A stretch of DNA of 64,000 nucleotides from Anaerolineae bacterium (GTDB lineage: Bacteria; Chloroflexota; Anaerolineae; Aggregatilineales; Phototrophicaceae). Shown here piece after piece: positions 54,518 through 64,000 of this stretch (the first letter of the stretch is position 1; each line of letters opens with the position of its first letter). Below the pieces are notes generated by a model, which saw only the letters and a list, made by a program, of their open reading frames with translations, did not search any database and had not been told where the DNA came from. A program made the translations under genes and the position numbers. The stretch lies in the NCBI GenBank assembly GCA_022841825.1, contig JALHQT010000001.1, positions 186,001 to 250,000 on the forward strand, in the 5' to 3' direction.

Positions 54518-55233
54518 GCTCGCTTGTCCTTGTTCACCATCTGGAGGAAGACGCTCTCCAGGTTTGCGGCATTCAGCTTCTTTCGGAGGTCACCAGGTTT
54601 GCCCTGGGCGACGATTTTGCCCTGGTTGATGATGATGACTCGGTCGCAGATTTGTTCAGCTTCGCTCAGGATGTGTGTGCTGATGAGGACTGTGTGCGAC
54701 TGACGTAACGCCGCAATTGTCTCACGCACCTCAATGACCTGCTGGGGGTCAATGCCGATGGTCGGCTCGTCAAGGATGATGACTGGCGGATTGTGGACGA
54801 GCGCCTGAGCCAGCCCCAAGCGCTGGCGCATCCCTTTCGACAGGTTACGCACAAGGGTCTTGCTGCGGTCATCCAGGTGAAGACGTTCCAACACAGCGCG
54901 CGCCGCCTGGGCGGGCTGGCGTACACCGCGCAGTTTCGCCCAGAAGGTGACGTAGCCCTCGGTCGTCATGTCTGGGTAAAGCGGGACTCGTTCAGGCAGA
55001 TAGCCGACACGACTGCGCGCCTCGAACGAGTCCTCGACCACATCGAATCCTCCAATGGCGGCGCTGCCGCTGGTCGGCGGCATGAAGCCGGTGAGCATTC
55101 GCATTGTCGTGGTCTTGCCTGCGCCATTCGGACCCAATAGTCCCACGATTTCGCCGGGCTGCGCCTTGAAGCTGATGGCATTGACCGCCAGACGGTCTCC
55201 GTATCGTTTGCTCAGGTCTTTGACTTCTATCAT
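54514..55233 (-). CDS. gldA: ABC transporter ATP-binding protein, GldA/NatA type
   Basis: 239 residues from ATG 55233 (MIEVKDLSKRYGDRLAVNAI). Walker A GPNGAGKTT, Q-loop GYLPERVPLYPDMT, signature LSKGMRQRLGLAQAL and Walker B VIILDEPTIGIDP. First gene of the four-gene ABC operon. An upstream frame extension lacks homology and was left out. Confidence 0.92.
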   Translation of the reverse strand: MIEVKDLSKRYGDRLAVNAISFKAQPGEIVGLLGPNGAGKTTTMRMLTGFMPPTSGSAAIGGFDVVEDSFEARSRVGYLPERVPLYPDMTTEGYVTFWAKLRGVRQPAQAARAVLERLHLDDRSKTLVRNLSKGMRQRLGLAQALVHNPPVIILDEPTIGIDPQQVIEVRETIAALRQSHTVLISTHILSEAEQICDRVIIINQGKIVAQGKPGDLRKKLNAANLESVFLQMVNKDKRA

Positions 55234-55339
55234 GACTTTACAAATTATTGGAGGAGCCTTGTGTACCCATCGTAATGCCAGGGGCGAAGTGACGTCAAGC
55301 CATGTTCTCAAGCTTGGCAGTCGTGAATGTGCGAATGTA

Positions 55340-55368
55340 TTGACAAGAAGGGATGAAATACTTAAACT
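55340..55368 (+). promoter_or_regulatory. arg operon promoter
   Basis: A perfect TTGACA (55340-55345), 17-nt spacer and TAAACT (55363-55368). The transcript would start near 55375, giving a leader of about 205 nt before argC, including the Arg-rich leader peptide and terminator. Confidence 0.75.
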
Positions 55369-55430
55369 CCTTTCCAATCCATGAGAGTTTCTGGCAACGC
55401 GTGATGTCCGAGTTGAGATTGAATTTGATA

Positions 55431-55493
55431 ATGAACCGTCGTCGCAGCCGTCGCCCGCATACCCCTGAGGTCATGTTGGGAGCTTTGCGTTAG
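55431..55493 (+). CDS. argL: Arg-rich leader peptide of the arg operon
   Basis: A 20-codon frame starting ATG at 55431 and ending TAG at 55491-55493. It reads MNRRRSRR at its start, so codons 3, 4, 5, 7 and 8 are Arg (CGT, CGT, CGC, CGT, CGC), and codon 20 is Arg again. It lies between a strong promoter and an intrinsic terminator in front of argC. A run of the codons for the pathway's end product is the hallmark of ribosome-mediated attenuation leaders. The ribosome-binding site is weak (GAG in GAGTTGAGATT). The symbol is a proposal. Confidence 0.75.
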   Translation: MNRRRSRRPHTPEVMLGALR

Positions 55494-55557
55494 CTGACGA
55501 CGAGCAGCAGTGCGGCTACCGACCCCCTGACCTCATTTTGTGAGGCAGGGGGTTTTT
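55466..55557 (+). terminator. arg attenuator: antiterminator segment and intrinsic terminator
   Basis: Terminator: CCCCCTG (55523-55529), a bulged A and CCTCA (55531-55535) pair with TGAGG (55541-55545) and CAGGGGG (55546-55552), a 12-bp stem followed by TTTTT. Antiterminator: TGAGGTCA (55466-55473), inside leader-peptide codons 12-15, is perfectly complementary to TGACCTCA (55528-55535), the 5' arm of the terminator. A ribosome stalled at the Arg codons leaves 55466-55473 free, so the terminator is broken; a ribosome reaching the TAG at 55491 masks it, and the terminator forms. Confidence 0.82.
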
Positions 55558-55580
55558 GTTTGTCAGAAGGGGAGGATGAG

Positions 55581-56591
55581 TTGGCAGAGCAGACGAAAAT
55601 TCGAGTCGGCGTATACGGCGCGTCGGGGTATGCCGGTCTCGACCTGGTGGAGATCCTGGCGAAACATGGGCATGTAGAACTTGTTTTTGCAGCGTCCAAC
55701 ACGTTCGCGGGGCAAACTGTTCCACATACTGACTTGCGATACGTGAAGATGGATGATGTGACGCTGGAGGGCGTGGATGCGGTGTTTTTGGCGCTACCAC
55801 ACGGCGTCTCTGCCGAGATGGCGGCGAAGGCACAGGTGGCAGGCTGCGCAGTCATCGATTTGTCGGCAGACCTGCGCATGGATACGCCGGAGTCTTATCG
55901 GGAGTGGTATTCCCATGCGCATCCGCACCCGGAGCTGCTGCCTGTCCCTTATGGTCTTCCCGAAATCAATCGCGCACACCTGGTCGGAAAGCGCATGATC
56001 GCTGCGCCGGGCTGTTACCCAACCACGACCTTGCTGGGATTGTATCCGCTTCTCAAAGCGCGATGGCTGCTCCCGGAGCGCCCAGTGATCGTGGATGCGA
56101 AATCTGGCGTGAGCGGGGCAGGGCGGGAGCCAAAGCCGACGACGCATTTTGTCGAGGTGTTTGGGAATCTTTCGCCCTATAATCCGGGGCGCAGTCATCG
56201 CCACGTCGGCGAAATCGAGCAGGAAATGCACAAGCTCGATCCGAATGTGGGAATGTTGGTCTTCACACCGCATCTGTTGCCGGTGGATCGCGGGCTGATG
56301 GCGAGCATTTATGTCGAGTTGAAGCCTGAATACGACTCGCGGGATGTGCGCGCGCTTTATGAGGCAGCTTACGATCAGGAGCCGCTGGTGCAGCTTCTGG
56401 CGGCATCCGAGCAGGCGACCCTCAAACATGTGGTGCGGACGAATGGCGCGGCGATCAGCCTGACGCTGGTCACACGGCATTTGCTGCACATCACCAGTGT
56501 GACGGACAACCTGCGAAAGGGCGCGAGCGGTCAGGCGGTGCAGTGCTTAAATCTGATGTTTGGCTTTCCAGAGACGACGGCGCTGCTGTAA
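55581..56591 (+). CDS. argC: N-acetyl-gamma-glutamyl-phosphate reductase
   Basis: 336 residues. TTG 55581 was chosen because GGGGAGG (55567-55573) lies 7 nt upstream; a TTG at 55560 would sit in the terminator tail. NADP fold VGVYGASGYAGLDLVEILAK, catalytic Cys145 in AAPGCYPTTTLLGL and the His region RSHRHVGEIEQE. Third step of arginine synthesis. First gene after the attenuator. Confidence 0.95.
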   Translation: MAEQTKIRVGVYGASGYAGLDLVEILAKHGHVELVFAASNTFAGQTVPHTDLRYVKMDDVTLEGVDAVFLALPHGVSAEMAAKAQVAGCAVIDLSADLRMDTPESYREWYSHAHPHPELLPVPYGLPEINRAHLVGKRMIAAPGCYPTTTLLGLYPLLKARWLLPERPVIVDAKSGVSGAGREPKPTTHFVEVFGNLSPYNPGRSHRHVGEIEQEMHKLDPNVGMLVFTPHLLPVDRGLMASIYVELKPEYDSRDVRALYEAAYDQEPLVQLLAASEQATLKHVVRTNGAAISLTLVTRHLLHITSVTDNLRKGASGQAVQCLNLMFGFPETTALL

Positions 56592-56593
56592 TC

Positions 56594-57436
56594 ATGGATG
56601 GCTTTTCAGCAGTCTTCTATGGCTTGATGGCGTCACTGCTCTGGGGCAGCGGCGATTTCAGCGGCGGAGTCGCTTCAAAGCGGATGAACGCCATTGGAGT
56701 CGTCGCGCTGTCGCACGTCATCGGGTTGGTCTTCATGCTGATTGCCGCCATCGTCAGTCGAGAGAGTGTTCCGCCCACGAGTGACTGGCTATGGGGTGCT
56801 GCGGCTGGTCTGGCGGGCGCTGTCGGTCTGGCAGCGCTTTATCAGGCGCTTGCATCTGGGAAGGCGGGGGTCGCCGCGCCCATCACGTCGGTTGTCGCCG
56901 CCGCGCTTCCTGTGGGTTGGAGTCTTTTGTTCACAGGCATGCCGGGAAACCTCGTGATCATCGGGATCATTCTCGGATTGATCAGCGTTGTGCTGGTGAG
57001 CGGCGGTGACGTTCGCAGCGGGGATGTGCGCACGGCACAGCTTGCGGTGATTTCCGGGCTTGGCTTCGGCGGCTTTTATGTGCTCGTCGCTCAGTTTTCG
57101 CCGGGCGCTGTGTTCTTTCCGCTGGTTGCAGCGCGCGCGACTTCGGCACTGGCGACTGTCGTGTTAGTGCTCCTGCTGCGGCGGTCGCTGGTTCCACCCG
57201 ATCGGTTGTCGTGGCTCGCGCTGGCGTTGGCGGGTATTTTAGATGTTGGTGCCAATGTCTGTTACGCGCTTTCGACCCAGGCTGGACGTCTTGACGAAGC
57301 GGTCATCGTTTCATCGCTCTATCCGGCGGTGACAATCCTGTTGGCGTTCGTCATCCGCCGCGAACGTATTACAGCGATACAGGGTGTTGGCATCCTGGCG
57401 GCTCTGCTGGCGGTGGCGTGCATTAGTGTGGGTTGA
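56594..57436 (+). CDS. EamA/DMT-family transporter
   Basis: 280 residues with ten membrane helices and the two EamA repeats (ALYQALASGKAGVAAPITSV and LSTQAGRLDEAVIVSSLYPA). Starts 2 nt after argC, so it is co-transcribed and under the same attenuator. EamA proteins export or import amino acids and other small metabolites; a role in arginine, ornithine or precursor export is only inferred from position. Confidence 0.87.
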   Translation: MDGFSAVFYGLMASLLWGSGDFSGGVASKRMNAIGVVALSHVIGLVFMLIAAIVSRESVPPTSDWLWGAAAGLAGAVGLAALYQALASGKAGVAAPITSVVAAALPVGWSLLFTGMPGNLVIIGIILGLISVVLVSGGDVRSGDVRTAQLAVISGLGFGGFYVLVAQFSPGAVFFPLVAARATSALATVVLVLLLRRSLVPPDRLSWLALALAGILDVGANVCYALSTQAGRLDEAVIVSSLYPAVTILLAFVIRRERITAIQGVGILAALLAVACISVG

Positions 57437-57451
57437 AACAGGGAGGCGTGG

Positions 57452-58198
57452 ATGCAGCAGTGCGTTGTGGTGAAGGTGAGTGGGCATGAAATTGATGATC
57501 CTGCTTTCTTACATACGTTCGCGCGGGTGATCGCCACGCTTGAGACACCCGTGATCGTGATTCATGGCGGAGGGCGCGAGATTACCGAGCTGCAACAGCA
57601 GATGGGGATTGAGCCGCGTTATGTCAGCGGATTGCGCATCACCGACGCCCCGTCGCTGGCAATCGTCGAGATGGTCTTGTGCGGCACGGTCAACACGCGC
57701 CTGGTGCGAATCCTTGTAGGCGCGGGAGTGGAAGCGCTGGGCATGAGCGGCGTGGATCGCGGGATCGTGCGGGCGACCCAAATGAAGCACGGTAATGATG
57801 ACATGCAGTACACGGGCAGTGTGGGCGCGGTACGAGGCGATGTGCTGCGGGACTTGCTGGCGGACGGCATTACTCCCGTCATCGCGCCCGTCTGTTTGGG
57901 CGAGGACACCGCCTACAATGTTAATGCTGACCATGTAGCCGGGGCGGTTGCCGCAGCGGTTGCCGCAGAGCGCGTGGTGTTTCTCACCAATGTGCCGGGG
58001 GTCATGGTGAATGGCGAAGTTATCGCAAGCCTGACGGCGGCGCGAACGGACGAGTTGATCGCCGAAGGGACGATATTTGGTGGCATGATTCCTAAAGTGA
58101 AGACCGCGATCAGTGCGTTGTCCAACGGCGCGCGCAGCGCCGTCATCACAGACCTGGAAGGACTGCGCATGGGGAGAGGGACGGTATTTACACGTTAG
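57452..58198 (+). CDS. argB: Acetylglutamate kinase
   Basis: 248 residues, ATG 57452 after GGGAGG. Phosphate-binding VIVIHGGGREITELQQQMGI, substrate region RYVSGLRITDAPSLAIVEM, NVNADHVAGAVAAA and the C-terminal GGMIPKVKTAISAL with the catalytic Lys. The usual N-terminal KIGG reads KVSGHEI, so one Gly is Ser. It lacks an N-terminal helix needed for arginine feedback in some ArgB proteins, which would fit control by attenuation. Confidence 0.92.
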   Translation: MQQCVVVKVSGHEIDDPAFLHTFARVIATLETPVIVIHGGGREITELQQQMGIEPRYVSGLRITDAPSLAIVEMVLCGTVNTRLVRILVGAGVEALGMSGVDRGIVRATQMKHGNDDMQYTGSVGAVRGDVLRDLLADGITPVIAPVCLGEDTAYNVNADHVAGAVAAAVAAERVVFLTNVPGVMVNGEVIASLTAARTDELIAEGTIFGGMIPKVKTAISALSNGARSAVITDLEGLRMGRGTVFTR

Positions 58199-58211: not shown

Positions 58212-58808
58212 ATGCGCGACATGGCACCGCTCACGGAAGAGTCTCTGTACGAGGAATTGACGACGCTGATTCGCCAGTTGTATCACAAAGGCGAAGCGGA
58301 CGAGATTGTGGAGACGTTCCAGGCAACACTTGCCGCGAATCCGACGGCAGATGCGCGGTATGGTATTTTGACGCATTGGGTGGATTTCTATCGCCTGCGC
58401 AAGTACCGCCGCGACCGCCAGCGCCGCCGCCCGACCTATCGAGAGCGCACGACACCGTGCGTGGCGTGCGGCTACCCGGTATCTCATCGGCACCACGTTT
58501 ATGACCTGGCGACTCACGGAGAGCATACACAGACGGTACAGCTCTGCGCGAACTGCCATGAACTCCAGCATCTGCTGTATAACGCGCTGATCAACGAGAG
58601 CGATTACAGCCAAAAGCTGGTCAACCACATGATGTATTCCGGGCGTGTTGCGCCCGCGACCTTTGATCAACTGCTGCTTTGGTGCCGCCAGACCATTGCC
58701 TACGAAGCCTCGAAGGGTTGGGTGAGCGCCGACAAGGCGGGTGATGAATGGGTTGAACTGCGACTGCATTGGTCGGAGTTCCGCCGACAATCGGGCGCCA
58801 AATCGTGA
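58212..58808 (+). CDS. HNH-type zinc-finger protein in the arg operon
   Basis: 198 residues from ATG 58212 (58221 is possible). Residues about 80-125 hold CVACGYPVSHRHHVYDLATH and CANCHELQHLLYN: two Cys pairs and the His residues of an HNH endonuclease fold. The N- and C-terminal helical parts are unassigned. It lies between argB and argD on the same transcript; its role there is unclear. Confidence 0.72.
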   Translation: MRDMAPLTEESLYEELTTLIRQLYHKGEADEIVETFQATLAANPTADARYGILTHWVDFYRLRKYRRDRQRRRPTYRERTTPCVACGYPVSHRHHVYDLATHGEHTQTVQLCANCHELQHLLYNALINESDYSQKLVNHMMYSGRVAPATFDQLLLWCRQTIAYEASKGWVSADKAGDEWVELRLHWSEFRRQSGAKS

Positions 58809-58846: not shown

Positions 58847-60055
58847 ATGGAGAAGGCATTGACGCAGGACATCATTCGGATCGAAAGCGAGCATCTGGTT
58901 CAGACCTACAAGCGTCCGCCGTTTGTGATCACACGCGGGAACGGAGTCATGCTCTATGACGCTGAGGGAAACGAATATCTCGACATGGTGGCGGGAATCG
59001 CGGTCAATGCGCTTGGTTATGCCGATCCAGGGATGATCCACGCGATCCAGGAGGCGGCGACGGGGCTGCTGCATACCAGCAGCCTGTACTACACCGAGCC
59101 ACAGGCACGCCTGGCTGCGGAGCTGTGCGAAAAGTCGTTTGCGGATCGTGTGTTCTTCACCAACAGCGGCACTGAGGCGAATGAGGGTGCGCTCAAGTTC
59201 ATCCGTAAGTTCCATTACGATGCAGGCGACAGAGAGCGCATAGAGATCGTCTGCTTTAGCGGAGCGTTTCACGGGCGCACCCTGGGCGCTCTGTCGCTGA
59301 CGCCCAAGGAAAAGTATCAGAAGCCCTTCGCGCCGCTGATGCCAGGCGTGGTTGTGGCGCAGTACAATGACATTGCGAGCGCGGACGCGGCGATCACGGA
59401 TAGGACGGCGGCGGTCATCGTTGAGCCGGTGCAGGGGGAGGGCGGGATCAATCCGGCGACGCCGGAATTCCTGCAAGCGCTGCGGCGGTTGTGTGACGAG
59501 CGAGGCGCGCTGCTGTGGTTCGACCAGGTTCAGTGCGGGATTGGACGCACAGGGACGTTATGGTCGAGCGATCCCAGCGGCGTTGCACCAGATGTGCAGA
59601 CGCTGGCGAAGGCTCTTGGGGGTGGGATGCCGATTGGTGCAGTCCTGACGACCAATCGCGTCGCCGATCACATTCATCCTGGAGATCATGGCTCGACTTA
59701 CGCGGGCAGCCCGTTCATCACGAGCGTCGCGGGCTATGTCTTCAACCGCATCAGCCAACCGTCGTTCCTGGAGCATGTGCGGGAGGTTGGCGGTTACCTG
59801 AAGGAACGCCTCCAGGAGATCAACAGCCCACTCATCAAGGAAGTGCGCGGGCGCGGCTTGATGGTCGGAATGGAGATGCATGTGGAGGTTGGCGACATTG
59901 TCGAGCAGGGCTATAAGAATGGCTTGATGCTGGTCAATGCCGGGACGCACGTGCTGCGCTTCGTGCCGCCGCTGATCCTTGAAAAGCCGCATGTGGATGT
60001 CATGATTGAGCGTCTGACTGGAATCCTCGCCAAGATGGGAGACAAAGGGTCATGA
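58847..60055 (+). CDS. argD: Acetylornithine aminotransferase
   Basis: 402 residues from ATG 58847 with GAAGGGG upstream. FFTNSGTEANEGALKFIRK, FSGAFHGRTLGALSLT, PVQGEGGINPATPEFL and the PLP lysine in QTLAKALGGGMPIGAV. The PLP-contact motif is FDQVQCGIGRTG, with Gln where Glu is normal. Fourth arginine step. Its stop overlaps argJ in ATGA. Confidence 0.94.
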   Translation: MEKALTQDIIRIESEHLVQTYKRPPFVITRGNGVMLYDAEGNEYLDMVAGIAVNALGYADPGMIHAIQEAATGLLHTSSLYYTEPQARLAAELCEKSFADRVFFTNSGTEANEGALKFIRKFHYDAGDRERIEIVCFSGAFHGRTLGALSLTPKEKYQKPFAPLMPGVVVAQYNDIASADAAITDRTAAVIVEPVQGEGGINPATPEFLQALRRLCDERGALLWFDQVQCGIGRTGTLWSSDPSGVAPDVQTLAKALGGGMPIGAVLTTNRVADHIHPGDHGSTYAGSPFITSVAGYVFNRISQPSFLEHVREVGGYLKERLQEINSPLIKEVRGRGLMVGMEMHVEVGDIVEQGYKNGLMLVNAGTHVLRFVPPLILEKPHVDVMIERLTGILAKMGDKGS

Positions 60056-61272
60056 CATCGAACAACCAGAGTGTACAGGGTGTCCCCGGCTTCAAGGTGG
60101 CGGGTGTCAGCGCGGGCTTGAAGGGGGATGGCAAGCTCGACTTTGCGCTGATAGTCAGCGATACACCGTGTGTTGCGGCAGGTGTTTTCACGATCAATCG
60201 GATGAAAGCCGCTCCGGTGATTGTCGACCAGGAGCGTTTGGCGAAAAAGCAGACGGGCTATCGCGCTGTCGCCATCAACACCAAGTGTGCCAACGCCTGC
60301 ACGGGGGAACAGGGCATTGCGAACGCCGTGCAGATGGCGCGTTGGGTGGCAGAGCGCGTTGGGTGCGCCGAGGACGAGGTGCTGGTGATGTCCACCGGCG
60401 TGATTGGAACCCATCTGCCGATGGACAAGATCAAACATGGCATTTCTCTCGCCGCCGATGCCCTCAGTGACAGCGCCGATGCCTGGGCGAAAGCGGCAGA
60501 GGCGATCATGACGACGGATACTCGTCCTAAGTTCAAGGCGGCGCACGTCGCGCGAGCAGAAGGCGGCAGTATCGCGTTGAACGGCATCGCCAAGGGCGCA
60601 GGGATGATTGCGCCGAACATGGCGACGATGCTGGGTGTGTTGGCGACCAACGCGGCGCTGACTCCGTCGAGTGCTTCTGCGCTGCTGAAGGCGTCTGCGG
60701 ATGTCAGCTTCAACCGCATCGTGGTAGACGGCGACATGAGCACAAATGACACGGTGCTTTTGCTCGCCAATGGCACCGGGGGTGATTCTGGCGATGACGC
60801 CTTGCTGCGCGATGCGCTAAACGCGACCAGCACAGAACTCGCAAAGATGATCGTGCGCGACGGCGAGGGCGCGACGAAATTCATCACCATCCAGGTCTTC
60901 GGTGCCCAGGACAACGAGCAGGCAAAGCAGATCGCCAACACAATTGCCACCTCGCCGCTCGTCAAGACGGCATTCTATGGCGGTGATGCCAACTGGGGGC
61001 GTATCATCGCGGCGGCGGGGCGCTCTGGCGTGGCGGTCGATCCCAAACTGATGAAGCTATGGGTTGCTGGCGGTGAGATTAATCGCACGGATCTTCTGCT
61101 GTTTGACAATGCAATGCCAACCACCTATGACGAGAAGCAGGCGACCGCGATCATGGCAGAGTCATCGATCCATGTAACCCTGGATTGTGGGCAAGGCAAG
61201 GGCAGCGCGATTGTCTGGACATGCGACTTGAGCCATGAGTACGTGTCGGTGAATGGGCATTATCGAAGTTAG
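60052..61272 (+). CDS. argJ: Bifunctional glutamate N-acetyltransferase / ornithine acetyltransferase
   Basis: 406 residues. KGAGMIAPNMATMLG holds the self-cleavage site between Ala191 and Thr192, Thr being the nucleophile. Also GVFTINRMKAAPV, INTKCANACTGEQGI, MIVRDGEGATKFITI and NWGRIIAAAGRSGV. It recycles the acetyl group from acetylornithine to glutamate. No argA is needed. Confidence 0.95.
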   Translation: MTSNNQSVQGVPGFKVAGVSAGLKGDGKLDFALIVSDTPCVAAGVFTINRMKAAPVIVDQERLAKKQTGYRAVAINTKCANACTGEQGIANAVQMARWVAERVGCAEDEVLVMSTGVIGTHLPMDKIKHGISLAADALSDSADAWAKAAEAIMTTDTRPKFKAAHVARAEGGSIALNGIAKGAGMIAPNMATMLGVLATNAALTPSSASALLKASADVSFNRIVVDGDMSTNDTVLLLANGTGGDSGDDALLRDALNATSTELAKMIVRDGEGATKFITIQVFGAQDNEQAKQIANTIATSPLVKTAFYGGDANWGRIIAAAGRSGVAVDPKLMKLWVAGGEINRTDLLLFDNAMPTTYDEKQATAIMAESSIHVTLDCGQGKGSAIVWTCDLSHEYVSVNGHYRS

Positions 61273-61332: not shown

Positions 61333-62472
61333 GTGAAGCAAGGCGTTCTGGCGTTAGAAGATGGACAGACGTTTTCGGGTGTTGGCTTTGGGGTCGAGGG
61401 TGTGCAGACGGGAGAACTCGTCTTCAATACTTCGATGACGGGCTATCAGGAAATCCTGACCGATCCGTCGTACCACAGGCAGATCGTGACGATGACTGTG
61501 CCGCATGTCGGCAACACGGGAATCAATCTCGAAGATCTGGAGTCGAGCAAGGTATGGGTCGCTGGTTTTGTCGTGCGGGCGATCAGCCCGAACGTCAGCA
61601 ACTGGCGCAGCCATCTCGACCTGGACAGTTATCTCTGTGAGCAGGGGGTGATCGGGCTGAGTGGCGTGGCGACGCGCCAGCTCGTGCGGCATCTCCGTAC
61701 ACGCGGGGTGATGCGCGCGGCAATCGCGCATGGCGAGGCGGCGGCGGATGCTGAAGCGCTCGTCAAGGCGGCACAGTCGGCTGCGGATATGAGCGGCGCG
61801 AACCTGGTCGATGACGTGACGACCGAGGAGACTTACCACTGGACAGAGGTGAGCGACCCAGCGTGGTACAAGTCACACGCTTATGACGCCCGGGGTCCCC
61901 TGATTGTCGCCTATGACACCGGCATCAAGCGCAACATTCTGCGTATGCTGACGGATCGTGGCTTGCGCGTGGCGGTCGTCCCGGCACGAACGACGGCGAG
62001 TGAGGTGATGGCGCTTAACCCGGCGGGCATCTTCCTGAGCAATGGTCCCGGAGATCCGGCGGCGGTGACGTACATGATCGACAATGTGAAAGATCTGCTG
62101 GGCAAAATGCCGATCTTTGGCATCTGCCTCGGTCATCAGATACTGGCGCTGGCGCTGGGGGGCAAGACGGAGAAGATGCGATTTGGGCACCGCGGTGGCA
62201 ACCAGCCGGTCAAGAATCTTTTATCGGGCGTGGTCGAGATCAGCGCGCACAATCATGGCTTCGCGGTGACGGCGGACAGCGACCTTCACGGGGCGGAAGT
62301 GACGCACGTCAACTTGAACGACAATACGATTGAAGGCTTACGGCATGAGGCGCTGGGTGCGTTCAGCGTGCAGTATCACCCGGAGGCGTCACCGGGTCCC
62401 CACGACTCGCTCTATCTGTTTGACGAGTTCGTGCAGCGGGTGAAGGGGGTGGGTAATGCCCAAACGAACTGA
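61333..62472 (+). CDS. carA: Carbamoyl-phosphate synthase, small subunit
   Basis: 379 residues from GTG 61333 with GAGAGGT upstream. N-terminal SFNTSMTGY-type motif appears as [17 protein letters not shown]; the glutaminase has the nucleophile Cys in [10 protein letters not shown], then [11 protein letters not shown] and the His/Glu in [10 protein letters not shown]. Supplies ammonia to CarB. The 60-nt gap after argJ has only a weak 5-bp hairpin. Confidence 0.95.
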
Positions 62473-64000
62473 CATCAAGACCATTCTCGTCGTCGGCTCC
62501 GGTCCCATTGTGATTGGACAGGGACCCGAATTCGATTACAGCGGCGTGCAGGCGTGCAAAGTACTCCGCGCCCAGGGCTACCGCGTCATCCTCGTCAACA
62601 GCAACCCTGCGACGATCATGACTGACCCCGAGTTTGCCGATGTGACCTATGTCGAACCGCTGACTCCGGAAATCGTCGAGCAGATCATTGCTGCCGAAAA
62701 GACGGACGCGCTGCTGCCGACCGTCGGCGGACAGACCGCGTTGAATCTGGCGAAGGCACTGACTGAGCGAGGCATTCTCGCAAAGCACGGCGTCGAGTTG
62801 ATCGGCGCGGTGATGGAGAGTATCGATCTGGCGGAAGATCGCCAGCTCTTTAAGCAGGCGATGATCGAGATTGGCTTGGACTGTCCACCGAGCGAGATCG
62901 TCAGCACGGTGGATGAAGCGGTTGCTGCCGCCGAGAAAATCCGCTATCCGCTGCTCATCCGCCCGTCGTTCACGCTCGGCGGCAGCGGCGGCGGCGTCGC
63001 CTACAACGAGACTCAGCTTCGCGAGGTCGCAGATCGCGGGTTGAAGCTTTCGCCTGTTGGGCAAGTGCTGATCGAGATGAGCGTGCTCGGCTGGAAAGAG
63101 TACGAACTCGAAGTCATGCGCGATACCAGCGGTAACTTTGTGGTCGTCTGCACCATCGAAAACCTCGACCCGATGGGCGTCCATACGGGCGACAGCATCA
63201 CCGTCGCGCCCGCGCAGACCCTGACGGACAAGGAGCTTCAGCGGCTGCGCAACATGGCGCGCATCGTGCTGGATCGCGTCGGTCTGGCGACGGGCGGGGC
63301 GAACGTTCAGTTCGCCGTCAATCCGCGCGATGGTCAGGTTTACGTGATCGAGATGAATCCGCGCGTCTCGCGGTCGTCGGCGCTGGCGAGTAAGGCGACG
63401 GGCTTCCCAATTGCCAAGATCGCCGCGCTGCTGGCGGTGGGCTATCGCCTGGACGAAATTCCGAACGACATCACGCGCGTCACGCCCGCCAGCTTTGAGC
63501 CGTCGCTCGACTATGTGGTCGTCAAGTTCCCACGTTGGGACTTCTCGAAGTTCCCAGGCGCGGATGCGAACCTGGGACCGCAGATGAAGGCGGTCGGCGA
63601 GGTGATGGCGATTGGGCGCACCTTCCCGGAGGCGCTGCAAAAAGCGATCCGCGCGCTGGACATCGGCATCCTCGGCTTTGGTTCCAAGCTTTTGGAGACG
63701 CCGGAGGGCGCGCTGCGCGTGCCGACAGCACAGCGGCTGTTCCAGGTGGCGGCGGCGCTCTATAACGGCATGGCGCCCGAAGAGGTCGAGCGTTCGACGG
63801 GTTTCGATGCCTGGTTCGTGCGTCAGATGGCAGACATCATTAAGATTCAGTCTACGATCATCAACAAGCGGCTGACACTGGATCGTCTCGACGAGCGCGA
63901 CTTCCTCAAGCTGAAACACTATGGCTACGGTGATGCACAGGTCGCGCGCCTGATCGGCACAGACGAGATGGCGGTGCGCGAGCGGCGCAAGGGCTTTGGG
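62456..64000 (+). CDS. carB: Carbamoyl-phosphate synthase, large subunit (cut by window end)
   Basis: The first 515 residues, from ATG 62456, which lies inside the end of carA (17-bp overlap) behind [61 protein letters not shown], the ATP-grasp loop [15 protein letters not shown] and [20 protein letters not shown]. The open frame covers the carboxyphosphate half and runs to the last base. Makes carbamoyl phosphate for arginine and pyrimidines. Confidence 0.95.

Follow-up and report, generated by a model that had tools for sequence, protein, structure and literature searches.

The window, by which we mean the whole stretch of 64,000 nucleotides that was analysed, closes with an operon of eight genes on the forward strand. 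These are argC (55581..56591), which starts with TTG after AAGGGGAGG, a gene for an EamA-family transporter (56594..57436, start approximate), an argB-like gene of the amino acid kinase family (57452..58198), a 196-aa gene of unknown kind with no Pfam match (58218..58808, start approximate), a gene for an argD-like class-III aminotransferase (58847..60055, start approximate), argJ (60052..61272), carA (61333..62472) and carB (62456..64000), which continues past the window end and encodes 1067 aa in the genome. The count agrees with the eight-gene arg/car operon proposed in an earlier note on this DNA. The genes argF, argG and argH were not seen within the 18 kb of the locus gene listing. Just outside the window, a gene for a protein kinase-TIR fusion on the same strand (L209:11660-12850) starts at the last base of carB and possibly belongs to the arginine operon. 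The EamA-family gene sits between argC and argB, and a similar-looking gene follows argC at the loci L199, L200, L201 and L202.

In front of argC lies a compact regulatory region, and the letters and coordinates named for it in the earlier note all check out on reading the sequence. A sigma-70-type promoter on the forward strand (55340..55368) consists of TTGACA at 55340-55345, a 17-nt spacer and TAAACT at 55363-55368. It is followed on the same strand by a leader peptide gene (55404..55493, encoding MSELRLNLIMNRRRSRRPHTPEVMLGALR from its probable ATG, with an alternative start at ATG 55431). The frame at 55431-55493 encodes MNRRRSRRPHTPEVMLGALR up to the stop, with Arg at codons 3, 4, 5, 7, 8 and 20 and Ser at codon 6. 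The putative control codons (55437..55454) are CGT CGT CGC at 55437-55445, the Ser codon AGC, and CGT CGC at 55449-55454. Segment 1 is the Thr codon ACC at 55461..55463, which could pair with GGT in segment 2 as a 1:2 hairpin, although in the window itself this hairpin has 3 bp only. Segment 2, the antiterminator 5' arm as judged from the duplex and from covariation, covers 55466..55489: it begins with TGAGGTCA, includes GGG and continues to the stop codon. Segment 3, the antiterminator 3' arm, covers 55502..55535, of which 55523-55535 doubles as the terminator 5' arm. The 8-nt complementarity described in the earlier note, between TGAGGTCA at 55466-55473 and TGACCTCA at 55528-55535, is present at exactly these places, but the antiterminator is longer than this and reaches 55489, immediately before the stop codon. 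A 7-codon frame, MRVSGNA and a stop (55381-55404), begins near the expected transcription start; its stop overlaps ATG 55404 (TGATG), which could couple translation or be due to chance.

The intrinsic terminator (55523..55557) has arms at 55523-55535 and 55541-55552 and a T-run at 55553-55557. Its stem, CCCCCTG-A-CCTCA / TGAGG-CAGGGGG, amounts to the 12 bp noted earlier, as 7+5 bp with one bulged A, and a hairpin search gave it -25.4 kcal/mol and a T-rich tail. A consensus scan of 54900-56100 did not list it, probably because of the bulged A. The window by itself folds barely better than shuffled sequence (z -1.64, 13 of 200 shuffles as good), so its fold is unremarkable and the case rests on relatives.

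We sampled 98 genomes of the window's family (the window's own genome has 5.9 Mb). An argC match was found in 95 of them, and by count from the table 88 carry the window-type argC (E 1e-58 or better), the rest having only a second kind, about 40% identical, or none. The covariance models R1 and R2 matched 65 and 45 of the 98 genomes, respectively, and together 80, and in all 80 the element stands at the head of the argC operon when positions are compared by eye with the argC table; in two of these cases it adjoins an argC cut by the contig end. Eight of the 88 genomes with window-type argC gave no R1 or R2 match. Among 70 control argC loci with record titles naming other organisms, no R1 match was better than E 0.07, which together with the matches in 80 of 98 family genomes excludes chance. 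Named public records of Anaerolineae MAGs, a group that includes OLB15, carry the element in nine of ten cases. One extra R1 match in the family (G082:C101, E 2.7e-4) lies away from argC, and a looser R1 search at the genus level yielded, beyond the argC copies (14 of 15 genomes), weak matches, of which the four that were read are by eye no attenuators. A generic strict test for an Arg run plus a hairpin was passed by 36 of 86 family upstream regions and by 4 of the 70 control loci; all four of the latter carry one common tail, which we take to be ribosomal protein S9.

For closer reading, 88 upstream regions were fetched and 86 were read, L087 and L088 being set aside with their argC start cut off. 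The terminator core is found in 74 of the 86. In four of the 12 without it, a gene has been inserted behind the leader: in these four genomes the leader is separated from argC by one gene and still stands in front, and the single intervening gene tested has a metallophosphoesterase domain. A second copy of the element occurs in one genome, where it has an Arg run of its own and lies upstream of argG-argH. The leaders form two clades, clade 1 with 43 sequences, mostly reading RRRRSRRPQTxEVxxGFLR to the stop with CCCCCTGACCTCA, and clade 2 with 31, mostly reading xEFSxxxLC to the stop with GCCCTGATCTC. This conservation decides against an ordinary terminator of the upstream gene that happens to lie beside an Arg-rich frame. 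Such a reading would suit the unstriking consensus scan and fold z-score of the window, but the relatives conserve the whole set, a promoter precedes the leader, and the long upstream frame in the ORF list is on the opposite strand, which places the terminator at 55523-55557 between promoter and argC on the same transcript. We regard this explanation as refuted, with practically no probability left to it.

The Arg codons are a constant feature of the leaders. In the frame of segment 2, at least three Arg per 13 codons occur in 72 of 74 leaders (22% in mononucleotide shuffles) and at least four in 65 of 74 (7% in shuffles), while the other two frames reach four or more in only 4 of 74. L080 and L045 have no Arg run in the frame preceding segment 2. 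A criterion of three Arg per seven codons in any frame is reached by 74 of 74 leaders against 30.2 of 74 in shuffles, and one of four per seven by 65 of 74 against 5.3; in L062 and L084 the any-frame criterion picked a frame different from the aligned one. The three-of-seven criterion is too lax, and we therefore relied on the count anchored on segment 2. In clade 1, Arg stands at five control columns in 34-40 of the 43 sequences with synonymous change among CGT, CGC, CGA and AGG, the third codon position being the most variable, and GAG GTC is nearly frozen where pairing is required. This codon-position pattern fits translation of the leader. One further locus, L231/L256 (G162:C1:3208790), has a TAG in the leader frame shortly before the Arg run.

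The TTGACA-17-TAAACT promoter, correctly read in the earlier note, has sigma-70-like counterparts upstream of 69 of the 74 leaders, where 2.6 would be expected from mononucleotide shuffles. A single in-frame ATG follows the expected transcription start at 37 of these 69 loci, and in 15 of the 37, many of them close relatives, it lies 33 nt before the Arg run. Several in-frame ATGs are present at 20 loci, the window included, and none at 12. The window's frame is open upstream of 55431, and its in-frame ATG 55404 lies likewise 33 nt before the Arg run. The ribosome-binding sites are poor: a Shine-Dalgarno sequence of 4 nt precedes a start in 14 of 74 leaders, and neither 55404 nor 55431 has a strong one. 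The 20-codon leader of the earlier note thus holds for the frame 55431-55493 and its Arg codons, but the leader probably starts at ATG 55404 rather than at 55431.

Both pairings are conserved with compensating changes. The antiterminator is built from GAGGUCA:UGACCUC followed by GGG:CCC; many sequences extend it with pairs like UUUGCG:CGCAAA as far as the stop codon of the leader, which is clearest in L020, L013 and L047. Its cells are paired to 86.7% in clade 1 (43 sequences) and 90.0% in clade 2 (31), with covariation reached by none of 500 shuffles in either clade, and one antiterminator position of clade 2 is mismatched in 23 of 31. The terminator cells are paired to 77.5% in clade 1 and 95.0% in clade 2, and their covariation was reached by 0 and 1 of 500 shuffles. 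Support for the 1:2 hairpin is weak in clade 1 (79.3% paired, covariation matched by 15 of 500 shuffles) and lacking in clade 2 (60.3%, 332 of 500). When the partners of the segment 2/3 duplex were swapped between sequences, 21 and 431 of 20,000 permutations in the two clades were as strong as the own pairs, numbers that are uncorrected for relatedness. In a family of the same order both arms have changed jointly, to GAGGTTCG/CGAACCTC and GGGGTTCG/CGAGCCCC. Arg codons and two pairings conserved among relatives were what the earlier note proposed to look for, and they are found: 72 of 74 leaders keep the codons and both pairings co-vary.

Folding of the nascent RNA up to the end of segment 3 was computed for 73 sequences (one of the 74 was set aside) with textbook values for the ribosome footprint edges. 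The mean probability of the 2:3 pairing is 0.90 when a ribosome stalls at the Arg codons, and in this state it exceeds 0.5 in 70 of 73 sequences. It falls to 0.56 in ribosome-free RNA and to 0.45 when the ribosome has reached the stop codon, where 2:3 is nevertheless preferred by 34 of the 73. For the window the values are 1.00 stalled, 0.91 without a ribosome and 0.01 at the stop. As the free window transcript forms 2:3, an untranslated leader would read through unless the 1:2 hairpin acts. Equilibrium folding of the full-length RNA favours the terminator in 65 of 73 sequences without a ribosome, 68 of 73 stalled and 71 of 73 at the stop, that is in every ribosome state, so the switch must be kinetic and decided during transcription. 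The geometry put forward in the earlier note, in which stalling frees the 5' arm and full translation covers it, needs adjusting in its second half: a ribosome at the stop would cover mainly the 3' half of the segment.

The promoter, the Arg-codon leader, segments 2 and 3 and the terminator are all seen in the sequence with their pairings conserved, and from this we consider it highly probable that the element is a ribosome-mediated transcription attenuator sensing charged Arg-tRNA. RNA polymerase would transcribe the leader with a ribosome trailing it. When arginine is short, the ribosome would stall in the CGU/CGC run and segment 2 (GAGGUCA, GGG and the stretch to the stop codon) would stay free, pair with segment 3 upon its emergence and block the terminator, such that argC-EamA-argB-orf-argD-argJ-carA-carB are transcribed. 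When arginine is plentiful, the ribosome would reach the stop codon directly after segment 2 and cover the 3' half of this segment, which leaves segment 3 to pair with segment 4 and transcription to terminate before argC. Translation of the leader might instead act by another route, such as Rho access, mRNA decay or coupling to argC translation, with the hairpin secondary. Salmonella speF orf34 is an example, in which a pair of adjacent Arg codons acts together with Rho and RNase G (PMC6386406). Against such a route stand the strong hairpin with its T-run and the co-varying antiterminator, both of which are conserved, and we judge it very unlikely in comparison with attenuation at the terminator.

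Arginine synthesis is usually regulated by the repressor ArgR. A search of the window's own genome (95.67% complete), as proposed in the earlier note, found neither of the ArgR domains PF01316 and PF02863. The ArgR C-terminal domain PF02863 was found in 0 of 98 family genomes and 0 of 396 genomes of the class, and in 8 of 14 control genomes. The attenuator would take over the role of ArgR, for which the searches of these genomes gave no match. An Rfam cmscan of 54900-56100 at E up to 5 detected no T-box and no leader family; its sole match, BcKCsr2 at E 0.52, is a chance-level sRNA match.

In the sample of the wider class, R1 matches 31 of 396 genomes, and as models rich in sequence content miss diverged versions, R1 and R2 non-matches elsewhere are not proof of absence. 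The positive genomes belong to the window's family, to two other families of its order (6 genomes), to one family elsewhere in the class (8) and, in one case, to a further family, f32 (G301). In another family again, two genomes have leaders before argC in which the Arg codons are less regular. One R1 match outside the window's family carries an alanine run and lies in front of alaS. A third model, R3, was built from eight leaders (six argC, one argD, one alaS) trimmed to begin beside the control codons, with the codons themselves excluded. In the second family, another family of the class, R3 gave 74 matches, spread over 44 of 52 genomes, 27 of which have two. We read 70 of the 74, leaving out the four weakest; the eight source sequences of R3 are among the 70. 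They lie before argC (40), argD (1) and alaS (27), and two have no assigned gene. The nine codons before the framework hold at least three Arg in 41 of 41 arg-linked cases and at least three Ala in none, whereas in the alaS-linked cases at least three are Ala in 26 of 27 (the other has two) and at least three are Arg in none. Own antiterminators in this family are stronger than swapped ones, with 0 of 20,000 permutations as strong (69 sequences; one row with an N was left out), and within the Arg and the Ala group 1 and 3 of 20,000 permutations are as strong. Ten extra matches on the opposite strand were left aside. One genome of the second family, G435, has four such attenuators (L263, L285, L287 and L294), two Arg and two Ala, and one of its Arg attenuators has no argC inside the stretch read.

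From the common framework, the Arg and Ala leaders appear to share ancestry. The control codons would set the specificity, for which the Arg/Ala swap in the second family is the strongest evidence. The swap also bears on an arginine-sensing arrest peptide, in which the nascent peptide and not the decoding rate would stall the ribosome on free arginine, as the fungal arginine attenuator peptide does when free arginine binds. The conservation of clade 1 outside the Arg run (RRPQTxEVxxGFLR) would be in keeping with such a peptide, but it falls in paired columns (GAG GTC, GGG), the tail is kept in L008 despite a 1-nt gap that shifts the frame after segment 2, and in the second family Ala runs stand in this framework before alaS. 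Moreover, a ribosome stalling at high arginine would, given this geometry, switch a biosynthetic operon in the wrong direction. An arrest peptide is accordingly very improbable, and a true arginine attenuator, its mechanism of a known kind, is very likely on the sequence evidence.

In the window's own family, alaS is present in 94 of 98 genomes. Of 30 upstream regions read, 12 were flagged for Ala-rich frames, none of which is by eye followed by a hairpin and a T-run; in many regions a TATAAT-like box lies directly upstream of alaS. Another ArgC-like gene, at G000:C8:139683-140699, shares 36% identity with the query; many family genomes have a similar one, and in several a homocitrate-synthase-like gene is near it. 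The pair presumably belongs to the LysW lysine pathway. In 20 stretches, 14 homocitrate synthase upstream regions were found, two of them with Lys-rich frames, and by eye a terminator follows only the one in G042. There (G042:C81, about 115087; L363, L365) a Lys-rich short frame encoding MTLHDIKKTKKHIPPD and a terminator precede a homocitrate-synthase-like gene, with a second Lys-containing short frame, followed by a T-run, further upstream, an arrangement seen in 1 of the 14.

Taken together, we lean towards a modular attenuator of the Anaerolineae: one RNA framework, its short pairing segments grouped about the stop codon of the leader, put before different operons and retargeted by exchange of the control codons alone (Arg before argC, argD or argG, Ala before alaS, perhaps Lys before homocitrate synthase), which would provide arginine control where ArgR is missing. 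This would give a concrete answer as to how a large, little-cultured class without detected ArgR may control arginine synthesis, and arginine would join the amino acids with a classical attenuator. The second family would also offer a natural codon-swap experiment, with one framework whose control codons are Arg where argC follows and Ala where alaS follows. Our literature search, covering titles and the beginnings of abstracts with most subscription papers outside it, found no description of an arginine-operon attenuator. This agrees with the earlier note's view that such elements are little described, and as evidence of novelty it is weak. What appears to be new is the amino acid, the lineage and the framework common to Arg and Ala leaders, while the mechanism is of a known kind.

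Classical attenuators (trp, his, leu, thr, ilv and pheST) combine a control-codon leader with a mutually exclusive antiterminator and intrinsic terminator. The window element shares this arrangement as well as a downstream gene that makes or charges the same amino acid, and it differs in having arginine as its amino acid, in its occurrence in Anaerolineae, in a 1:2 hairpin that is weak or unsupported and in a segment 2 that reaches the stop codon. T-boxes bind tRNA directly and have no leader peptide. Arginine T-boxes control arginine genes at the RNA level (PMC1262725), as the window element would; according to the same paper, no conserved RNA structures were observed upstream of arginine operons in Actinobacteria, and T-boxes occur at arginine genes elsewhere. 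PMC9413887 and PMC1262725 served as the basis of comparison for amino-acid operon attenuators, and PMC8632094 and PMC9413887 describe other attenuators. Salmonella speF orf34 likewise has consecutive Arg codons whose slow reading alters the folding of the leader RNA, but it controls ornithine decarboxylase via Rho and RNase G and not through an intrinsic terminator before arginine genes (PMC6386406). Leaders with amino-acid codons before synthetase genes are known from the alaL-alaS and the trpS/leuS attenuators of Streptomyces (PMC8079986, PMC1262725). The alaL leader of Streptomyces lividans carries six Ala before alaS (PMC8079986), so the Ala case has precedent; in contrast to alaL-alaS, the alaS leader of the second Anaerolineae family has the RNA framework of the arg leader.
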